In this document: positions 2,381 to 20,991 of the stretch, in pieces | Layout: every line of letters begins with the position of its first letter | Numbering within the stretch: position 1 is the stretch's first letter | Virus record (IMG/VR): IMGVR_UViG_3300019760_000014 | Span: 1-21,779 of that record | Direction: 5' to 3' (one strand) | Length of the DNA: 21,779 nt | Origin: a virus | Translations under genes and position numbers: made by a program | The notes under the pieces: generated by a model | The model's input: only the letters and a program-made list of their open reading frames with translations | The model's database searches: none | Told to the model about the DNA's origin: nothing

Positions 2381-2544
2381 TAAATAAAAAAGGCTAATCA
2401 CACAGCCTTGTACAAATCTTAATGATAAACAATCAACTCATATCAAACTTTCTCAAGGATTTGAAAAATGTTTAATCTTTGTAAGTTCAACTTTGATCGT
2501 GTAAGATCTTTAATCTTTAAGCTTCGATATTCTGTTGAATACCG

Positions 2545-2558
2545 CCTAGTATACTAGG
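2545..2558. repeat. Perfect 14-bp palindrome in non-coding DNA
   Basis: CCTAGTATACTAGG is a perfect inverted repeat with no spacer. It lies in the gene-free stretch between the two tRNA genes (2381-2596), which is otherwise A/T-rich with the recurring word TTTAATCTTT (twice near 2471-2518). It could be an operator or a small RNA hairpin. Nothing else in that stretch is recognisable. Confidence 0.45.
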
Positions 2559-2595
2559 TAACCTTTAAGTGTTAAACTTTAAACTTTTCTTATTA

Positions 2596-2695
2596 TATGT
2601 TTGCTTGAACCTAAATCAAGTGCGTATACCCTTCCGCCACATCCCCTTATATTATTATTTAGAGGGGATGGTAGGATTCGAACCTACAAAACATA
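2596..2695 (-). tRNA. tRNA-Leu(UAG) with its two parts in permuted order
   Basis: Reading the minus strand, the T-arm (GTAGG, TTCGAAT, CCTAC; 2687-2671) and 3' acceptor strand CATCCCC (2670-2664) come first. Then come an A/T-rich linker of about 17 nt and the 5' acceptor GGGGATG (2646-2640), a Leu-type D-arm (GCG/CGC with GGG in the loop) and a perfect anticodon arm CTTGA-TTTAGGT-TCAAG (2620-2604) with anticodon UAG. The two acceptor strands are perfectly complementary over 7 bp. No T-arm follows the 5' part and no 5' acceptor precedes the T-arm. The outer flanks AAACATA (2602-2596) and TATGTTT (2695-2689) also pair, as a class II variable arm would. The sequence therefore supports a circularly permuted tRNA gene; how it would be joined is unknown. 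Confidence 0.6.
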
Positions 2696-2753
2696 AACTT
2701 CTGATTAGCAATCAGTGTTTATAAGAAAGTTATCATATTAACCCTTATGATAA
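2693..2753 (-). other. Two stem-loops upstream of the permuted tRNA
   Basis: On the minus strand a 7-bp hairpin (TTATCAT/ATGATAA; 2753-2730) is followed by a longer one (2722-2693) made of ATAAAC/GTTTAT around CTGA/TCAG with loop TTGCTAA. The second mimics an anticodon arm (U33, GCU = Ser), but no 5' acceptor matching the nearby CATCCCC lies upstream. It is therefore more likely a leader structure or part of the joining site of the permuted tRNA than a tRNA-Ser. Confidence 0.45.
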
Positions 2754-2805
2754 TAGGGGATTGTATTAAAAGATTTTCGTGTAATTAACCTTTATTTTTT
2801 GTTTT

Positions 2806-4098: not shown

Positions 4099-4147
4099 GA
4101 ACCGTTAGTGGGAATCGAACCCACCTAGGCAGCCTGCTACAACGGTT
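4099..4147 (-). tRNA. 46-nt tRNA minihelix-like element
   Basis: On the minus strand ACCGTTG and TAACGGT pair over seven positions (one G-U), followed by TCA. A perfect T-arm (GTGGG, TTCGATT, CCCAC) sits directly before the 3' acceptor strand. Between the 5' acceptor and the T-stem there are only 15 nt (TAGCAGGCTGCCTAG), which can form a 3-bp stub, so there is no room for D- and anticodon arms. It could be a decayed tRNA or a substrate for RNase P/tRNase Z that cuts the operon transcript. The rest of the gap (4148-4273) holds one imperfect hairpin near 4222-4236 and no gene. Confidence 0.5.
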
Positions 4148-4273
4148 AAATGTATTATAAAATGATTAAACTTCCAGATCTAACTCCTTCTGTTTTAAAT
4201 TCATATATTGGTTTCGTTCTACACACGTAGTACTGTACCACGGGTATAATTTTGTAAATTATAATCCCCATGC

Positions 4274-16191: not shown

Positions 16192-16276
16192 TTACTCAGC
16201 CCGGAATCGAACCGGGACGCTTTCAAACGTCTCATAAGTTAGGACGTAATTATACGTTGCGTTCACTGCCTGAGTT
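16192..16276 (-). tRNA. tRNA-like element, class II-like, about 84 nt
   Basis: On the minus strand ACTCAG (5') pairs with CTGAGT (3'), and a perfect T-arm (CCCGG, TTCGATT, CCGGG) sits in canonical position before the 3' acceptor strand. A variable-arm-like hairpin ACGTT-TGAA-AGCGT precedes the T-stem. The would-be anticodon stem (TATAA/TTATG) encloses 12 nt instead of 7, the D-arm is only two pairs, and position 1 faces A. No anticodon can be assigned with confidence. Decayed tRNA or processing signal. Confidence 0.4.
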
Positions 16277-16458
16277 AATATTTTGGTTATTCTTATTTGT
16301 CTCATCTTTCAATGCTAAGTCATTAGCCCATCCCATTGTTGGATTTGAACCTGTTGTATCACCACATATATAAGTTTATCTTTGTCACATATGCTGTCAA
16401 CTGTCATGAACCGATAGTAACTGCCACTATCTGTTAAACAAATAAAATGTTTAATTTC
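16277..16458 (-). other. Gene-free stretch with one hairpin
   Basis: No frame of note. On the plus strand it holds a 6-bp hairpin GATAGT/ACTATC (16413-16431), TGTCA three times (16383-16406), and a GGTTCAAATCC string on the minus strand (near 16331-16341) that resembles a tRNA T-loop but lacks a T-stem and acceptor partner. It separates the zinc-ribbon gene from the tRNA-like element. Confidence 0.5.
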
Positions 16459-20839: not shown

Positions 20840-20867
20840 AATAGTATGATTTAGTTAATTTGATTGA

Positions 20868-20991
20868 GCCAGAAGAGGGAGTCGAACCCTCAAATACTAC
20901 TTTTCGTAATCGCGTCTAACCTCCAAGGTCGGTAGTATTATGGTGTTTTTCACAGTTATCATCTGCAAACGCGCAAACCTCCATTTCCGGC
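20868..20991 (-). tRNA. tRNA-like element with a long insert, 124 nt
   Basis: On the minus strand the 5' strand GCCGGAA pairs with TTCTGGC (7 bp, one G-U), and a perfect T-arm GAGGG-TTCGACT-CCCTC precedes the 3' acceptor, followed by TCA. A plausible anticodon arm TGCAG-ATGATAA-CTGTG (U33, anticodon GAU, Ile; A37) lies in the 5' part. About 59 extra nt follow, closed by AATACTAC/GTAGTATT, and the D-arm is weak. The string TGGAGGTTxGxCGCG appears twice with changes. An intron-bearing, chimeric or decayed tRNA are all possible. Confidence 0.45.

Follow-up and report, generated by a model that had tools for sequence, protein, structure and literature searches.

A candidate circularly permuted tRNA-Leu(UAG)-type gene with a variable-arm junction in a crAss-like phage fragment

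A non-coding region of a crAss-like phage carries the parts of a tRNA-Leu(UAG) in circularly permuted order, with the T-arm and the 3' acceptor strand preceding the 5' acceptor strand, a Leu-type D-arm and an intact anticodon arm. On the basis of sequence comparison and folding models this arrangement very probably goes beyond chance. The fuller reading, namely a tRNA-Leu(UAG)-type gene that is circularly permuted at a variable-arm junction and whose RNA would work as two pieces without ligation and read CUA/CUG, is given about an even chance of being correct.

The DNA analyzed (the window) is an IMG/VR virus record of 21,779 bases representing a fragment of a phage related to crAssphage. It had been taken for a phage genome in the first-pass annotation, and its exonuclease, DNA polymerase and DnaB place it with the crAss-like phages: the best phage matches of the exonuclease and the DNA polymerase are Crassvirales genomes, and a Pfam scan of ten window proteins found DnaB, toprim and uracil glycosylase domains.

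Parts and order of the permuted unit

The unit is encoded by the minus strand, within a gap of 573 non-coding bases (2233-2805). Its parts and surroundings are listed below in transcript order, with the lines of evidence in brackets.

2381-2805, minus strand: structured non-coding region of 425 nt enclosing the unit (z -5.07; 0 of 100 shuffles as good)
about 2779-2793 with 2389-2403, minus strand: predicted 15-bp helix closing the structured region (fold)
2721-2728, minus strand: predicted outer helix, 5' strand TTTCTTAT, partner of 2586-2593 (fold with the tRNA core imposed)
2689-2695, minus strand: variable arm, 3' strand TATGTTT, 5' end of the unit (sequence, fold, flank shuffles)
2671-2687, minus strand: T-arm GTAGG-TTCGAAT-CCTAC (sequence, fold, R1 model)
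2664-2670, minus strand: 3' acceptor strand CATCCCC (sequence, acceptor-based scanner, R1 model)
2647-2663, minus strand: spacer of 17 nt, TCTAAATAATAATATAA (sequence, fold)
2640-2646, minus strand: 5' acceptor strand GGGGATG (sequence, acceptor-based scanner, R1 model)
2622-2637, minus strand: Leu-type D-arm GCGGAAGGGTATACGC (GCG-GAAGGGTATA-CGC) (sequence, fold, acceptor-based scanner)
2604-2620, minus strand: anticodon arm CTTGA-TTTAGGT-TCAAG, anticodon UAG at 2611-2613 (sequence, fold, ARAGORN on the re-ordered halves)
2596-2602, minus strand: variable arm, 5' strand AAACATA, 3' end of the unit (sequence, fold, flank shuffles)
2586-2593, minus strand: predicted outer helix, 3' strand ATAAGAAA, partner of 2721-2728 (fold with the tRNA core imposed)
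2390-2409, minus strand: terminator-like hairpin downstream of the unit, excluding the closing 15-bp helix
2308-2380, minus strand: tRNA in ordinary order, anticodon CUA (amber-suppressor type), downstream neighbor of the unit (ARAGORN)

The transcript thus reads TATGTTT, U, T-arm, CATCCCC, 17-nt spacer, GGGGATG, UG, D-arm, A, UAG anticodon arm, C, AAACATA. T-arm and CATCCCC occupy 2664-2687, ahead of GGGGATG, D-arm and anticodon arm at 2604-2646. This is the order proposed in the first-pass annotation, and the gap of about 17 nt that it placed between the halves is the 17-nt spacer at 2647-2663. The perfect acceptor match described there holds as well: CATCCCC and GGGGATG form seven Watson-Crick pairs out of seven. 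The first base of the spacer corresponds to position 73 (U) and can pair with its last base (A, before G1) to give an 8-bp acceptor stem. CCA is absent from the gene, TCTA following the 3' acceptor strand, and the discriminator is U73, not the A73 present in 151 of 154 phage tRNA-Leu. The bases that link the two halves of a tRNA, read from the sequence, are all in place (U8/A14, R15/Y48, G18G19/U55C56, U33, R37) and the anticodon arm is intact (U33, UAG, G37).

Perfect acceptor complementarity is rare between unrelated tRNAs; when 3' and 5' acceptor strands of phage tRNAs of different isotype were combined, 7/7 Watson-Crick pairing occurred in 3 of 8,520 pairings, and in 40 of 8,520 if G-U pairs were counted. 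Identical acceptors in tandem isoacceptors are a real confounder, as in a Leu-Leu pair in another record (L139) which matches 7/7, each half there having its own partner. At the window unit, in line with the initial claim, no normal-order partner was found for either half on its own side: a search of 260 nt upstream gave none, the stretch downstream as far as the CUA tRNA shows none, and ARAGORN reports no normal-order tRNA at this position. A normal-order reading in which the hairpin CTGATTGCTAATCAG serves as a Ser(GCU) anticodon arm was rejected, as it has no 5' acceptor partner upstream.

A check with a permuted-tRNA covariance model, suggested in the first-pass annotation, gave a match. 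The model R1, made from 28 ordinary phage tRNAs permuted in silico, none of them from the window, scores the unit at 57.2 bits with 7/7 acceptor pairs intact and one non-standard D-stem pair; because ordinary tandem tRNAs also score with R1, the acceptor pairing and the missing partners constitute the discriminating evidence. A second model (R2), derived from a natural permuted phage family and built without the window, finds the window core at 41.7 bits (E 3e-10). When the halves are re-ordered and joined by an invented variable-arm loop ARAGORN calls tRNA-Leu(UAG), in agreement with the Leu-type D-arm and UAG anticodon arm recognized initially; this result bears on the halves alone because the loop is invented. 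A BLAST match to Psa21 tRNA-Leu shows 86% identity over 55 nt.

The outer flanks TATGTTT and AAACATA pair 7/7 exactly flush where the Leu variable arm belongs, another feature noticed from the start, and an unconstrained fold of 186 nt returns the permuted cloverleaf with this 7-bp arm (z -2.4). A flush 7-bp helix arose in 106 of 20,000 flank shuffles (0.5%). The energy of the whole flank duplex is ordinary (865 of 3,000 shuffles equally good), the AT-rich flanks making short pairings cheap, and the flank evidence is therefore considered moderate. According to these models, the RNA can fold as a complete tRNA-Leu in which the T-arm and 3' acceptor come first, the 17-nt loop bridges the acceptor end and both outer ends exit through the variable arm, closed by the 7-bp helix and, with the tRNA core imposed, by a further 8-bp helix continuing it.

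In the lowest-energy fold of the enclosing 425-nt region the T-arm strand has a different partner, and the permuted cloverleaf, when imposed, is only 1.3 kcal/mol less stable (-102.3 vs -103.6 kcal/mol for the free fold). Pairing of the T-arm strand with TTGAACTTACAAAG was considered as a ground to reject the cloverleaf and dismissed, since it represents an alternative fold of nearly equal energy. The closing helix and the terminator-like hairpin are mutually exclusive, as in an attenuator upstream of the CUA tRNA, and this predicted competition may be regulatory.

Some further features of the locus were observed. The CUA-anticodon tRNA is present although 6 of the 29 window ORFs end in TAG (standard code), and ten bases of the upstream flank (2754-2763, CAATCCCCTA) are perfectly complementary to its anticodon arm (2340-2349). 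Three additional T-arms on the minus strand that are not called as tRNAs (4108-4180, 16200-16290 and 20866-20991) each apparently have a normal-order upstream acceptor partner and an aberrant or missing anticodon region; similar orphan T-arms occur by the dozen in related crAss-like loci.

Relatives and other permuted RNAs

A second copy of the permuted tRNA-Leu was found neither among 50 crAss-like records nor when viral and genome contigs were scanned with patterns, and no normal-order copy, which the first-pass annotation had named as contrary evidence, came to light. The collection searched, from which near-identical records are possibly absent, gave no close relative: the adjacent 208-aa protein led to none, the loci of the crAss-like phages nearest to the window (L010, L011, L013, L014) contained no T-arm that met the filter, and the relatives reached through the exonuclease (two, then 80 through alignment) hold no other permuted tRNA. 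Over 1.46 Mb of loci, the acceptor-based scanner detected no additional case. Viral contigs contained 0 matches to exact patterns with this acceptor and 2 to a relaxed pattern, both belonging to another permuted tRNA-like element; in genome contigs, acceptor patterns gave 0 and then 5 matches, all five judged by eye from their sequences to be chance. Among the matches listed for a broad Leu pattern most were ordinary tandem tRNAs; this pattern also led to the record L149. R1 had matches in 31 of the 50 crAss-like records, and those of 22-51 bits, examined at 48 loci, were ordinary neighboring tRNAs or permuted tmRNAs. Where the acceptor partner lay downstream only, the locus was almost always a permuted tmRNA.

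Five crAss-like loci carry permuted tmRNA genes above the Rfam cut-off (53.7-71.1 bits vs 47), and thus the permuted layout is already used by this group for a tRNA-type RNA.

L212:1253-1432, permuted tmRNA
L216:1700-1891, permuted tmRNA
L221:1579-1771, permuted tmRNA
L269:118-300, permuted tmRNA
L272:20-199, permuted tmRNA

Two-piece tmRNA, which occurs in phages (PMC9004378), is described as working as separate RNAs (PMC10085705). The window unit shares with permuted tmRNA (RF04321) the order T-arm, 3' acceptor, loop, 5' acceptor as well as a helix of the outer flanks, whereas in tmRNA the D-arm is reduced, the anticodon arm is missing and a tag reading frame is present. The RF04321 cut-off is not reached by the window (20 bits vs 47, covering the T-arm/acceptor part only). 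YrlA (RF02553), described as a tRNA mimic (PMC8394870, PMC7790460), likewise has a permuted tRNA-like domain with paired outer ends; unlike the window unit, its junction lies in the anticodon stem, it has no anticodon hairpin and its acceptor loop is short and closed.

A further group of permuted units follows a DUF7873 gene in phages. A 292-kb phage contig, reached through a broad pattern scan (among the matches listed), contains 29 ordinary tRNAs, a permuted-type tmRNA call and two permuted tRNA-like units after the DUF7873 gene. Units at the same place with a different acceptor stem are present in L233, L234, L236, L238 and L241, and also in Rhizobium phages RHph_Y65, TM16 and Y1_11 and Klebsiella phage KpLz-2_45.

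L232:3463-3765, DUF7873-linked permuted unit
L233:3449, DUF7873-linked permuted unit
L234:3409, DUF7873-linked permuted unit
L236:3501, DUF7873-linked permuted unit
L238:3364, DUF7873-linked permuted unit
L241:3348, DUF7873-linked permuted unit
L242:3457, DUF7873-linked permuted unit
L243:3574, DUF7873-linked permuted unit
L244:3362 and L244:3561, DUF7873-linked permuted units
L245:3555, DUF7873-linked permuted unit

Judging by their sequences, these units are a conserved permuted tRNA-like family in large phages, mostly with NCCA and with covarying acceptor stems. Across 12 units, 15 of the 16 pairs of the T-arm, acceptor and D-arm are changed on both sides (shuffle mean 9.3). As many as 99% of the cells pair in these 12 units, a value partly selected for the T-stem and acceptor because the units were found by requiring both to be paired; pairing reaches 96% in the D-arm, which the search did not require, and the location behind DUF7873 played no part in the search criteria. 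A full NCCA follows the 3' acceptor strand in 11 of the 14 units listed. Since their flanks form the anticodon stem, the junction of these RNAs is assigned to the anticodon region. They (L232-L245) have in common with the window unit the permuted T-arm/acceptor/D-arm in a phage, R2 finding the window core, and differ from it in the anticodon stem/loop junction, the usual NCCA, the lack of a canonical anticodon loop and unrelated flanks.

Several DUF7873-linked units match YrlA weakly (28-39 bits vs a cut-off of 69). Their outright assignment to YrlA was rejected, as they fall below the Rfam cut-off and have the NCCA that is absent from the YrlA consensus, which shows a short acceptor loop without CCA (RF02553). 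RHph_Y65 encodes a TROVE (Ro60-type) protein about 6 kb away, and is the only record tested that does. Upstream, the family shows a common stem that carries CAAACU or UUAG repeats. Elsewhere, in L248:4080-4360 (also L247), permuted tRNA-like elements are arranged in tandem with linkers that recur (GGTGCGCAGATGA, GGTTCTC); they may form an array of Y RNA-like units, and one of them matches YrlA at 32 bits.

Outside phages, a 2014 review counted 34 permuted tRNA genes, all from algae and archaea, in which a splicing endonuclease and a ligase make a circle and the junctions (15/16, 20/21, 37/38, 50/51, 59/60) are marked by a bulge-helix-bulge motif (PMC3978253). As in the permuted tRNAs of Cyanidioschyzon, green algae and Thermofilum, the 3' half of the window unit precedes the 5' half, the spacer is within the known range of 1-74 nt, the conserved tRNA bases are kept, the isotype is of the favored class II, such as Leu, and, as in C. 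merolae, CCA is not encoded (PMC3978253). The window unit differs in belonging to a bacteriophage genome and in its variable-arm junction, absent from the 34 reviewed. Among the papers listed by a search of open-access text, none showed a permuted tRNA gene in a phage. The initial remark that no phage example was known with certainty has to be narrowed: phages do have permuted tmRNAs and other permuted RNAs that resemble tRNA, although none of those found has an intact anticodon arm like that of the window unit.

Maturation, decoding and alternative readings

By analogy with permuted tmRNA, the unit probably matures as two pieces without ligation. It would be transcribed together with its neighbors; RNase P would excise the 17-nt loop together with RNase Z or exonucleases acting at the 3' side, which would free the acceptor end for the addition of CCA. 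Like those of two-piece tmRNA, the pieces would be held together by the acceptor stem and the variable arm and by contacts between D-loop and T-loop, making a ligase or an intron unnecessary. End-joining need not be assumed, because permuted tmRNAs work as two pieces and five crAss-like records carry them. The product would be a two-piece tRNA-Leu reading CUA/CUG, codons which account for 14% and 3%, jointly only 17%, of the leucine codons in the window ORFs. Decoding is favored by the intact Leu(UAG) anticodon arm (U33, G37) and the complete set of putative tertiary-contact bases; against it are U73, the lack of CCA and the embedding in a larger folded RNA. A73 matters strongly to the LeuRS of E. 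coli. That this is the first decoding circularly permuted tRNA of the bacterial world, with a variable-arm junction and two base-paired pieces that require no ligation, is put forward tentatively, being somewhat doubtful.

Among the other readings, the serious one, although unlikely, is that of a tRNA mimic which does not decode and keeps its permuted form, with a loop-closed acceptor and paired ends that tether a protein in the manner of Y RNA/YrlA, or with the RNA as a whole serving as bait for tRNA-binding enzymes such as anticodon nucleases. The topology is that of YrlA, with a closed acceptor hairpin, the T-arm before the D-arm and paired 5' and 3' ends (RF02553 consensus; PMC8394870), and the DUF7873-adjacent RNAs demonstrate permuted tRNA-like phage RNAs lacking a proper anticodon loop; U73, the missing CCA, the 8-bp acceptor and the large surrounding structure agree with such a role. 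However, YrlA flanks form an anticodon stem and leave no anticodon hairpin, whereas the anticodon arm of the window is intact (U33, UAG, G37), a search of the window with RF02553 gave nothing at E values up to 10, and no Ro60 (TROVE) gene was found in the incomplete genome of the 21.8-kb window or among 27 crAss-like records examined for it, many of which are fragments. The dull alternative, which we regard as improbable, is a relic of a tandem tRNA pair with the same acceptor whose upstream gene lost its 5' half and whose downstream gene lost its 3' half, nothing functional being made. Tandem isoacceptors with identical acceptors do exist and give the same signal (the 7/7 Leu-Leu pair of L139), and the upstream sequence ACAATCCCCT...AAGGG (about 2743-2763) is a weak echo; yet two independent losses would have to spare exactly complementary halves with no mismatch in the T, acceptor and anticodon pairs, the outer variable-arm strands pair too, and the missing halves leave no recognizable remnant. 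A permuted gene is itself likely to have originated by tandem duplication.

Maturation through a circular or otherwise joined RNA would yield a one-piece tRNA, the joining being due to an RNA ligase or to a split self-splicing intron located in the flanks; in our estimate it has a very low probability. In algae and archaea the ends of permuted tRNAs are joined by way of a circle (PMC3978253), and the flanks, within a 425-nt region that folds strongly (z -5), have the length needed for a ribozyme. Rfam searches of the window gave no match, even permissively, to introns or ribozymes (group I/II introns, ribozymes, GOLLD and ROOL were sought), although a split intron core could escape the models, and the Pfam scan found no RNA ligase in the ten window proteins of this incomplete genome. 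To our knowledge, the bulge-helix-bulge endonuclease pathway is not known from bacteria.

Implications for phage RNA biology

A permuted tRNA in a phage would mean that a tRNA can work as two unjoined pieces, like two-piece tmRNA; alternatively, it would mean that phages build tRNA mimics from whole tRNA genes. Standard tRNA finders skip permuted genes, as seen in the absence of an ARAGORN call at the window unit, and phage genomes hold further permuted tRNA-like RNAs without annotation.
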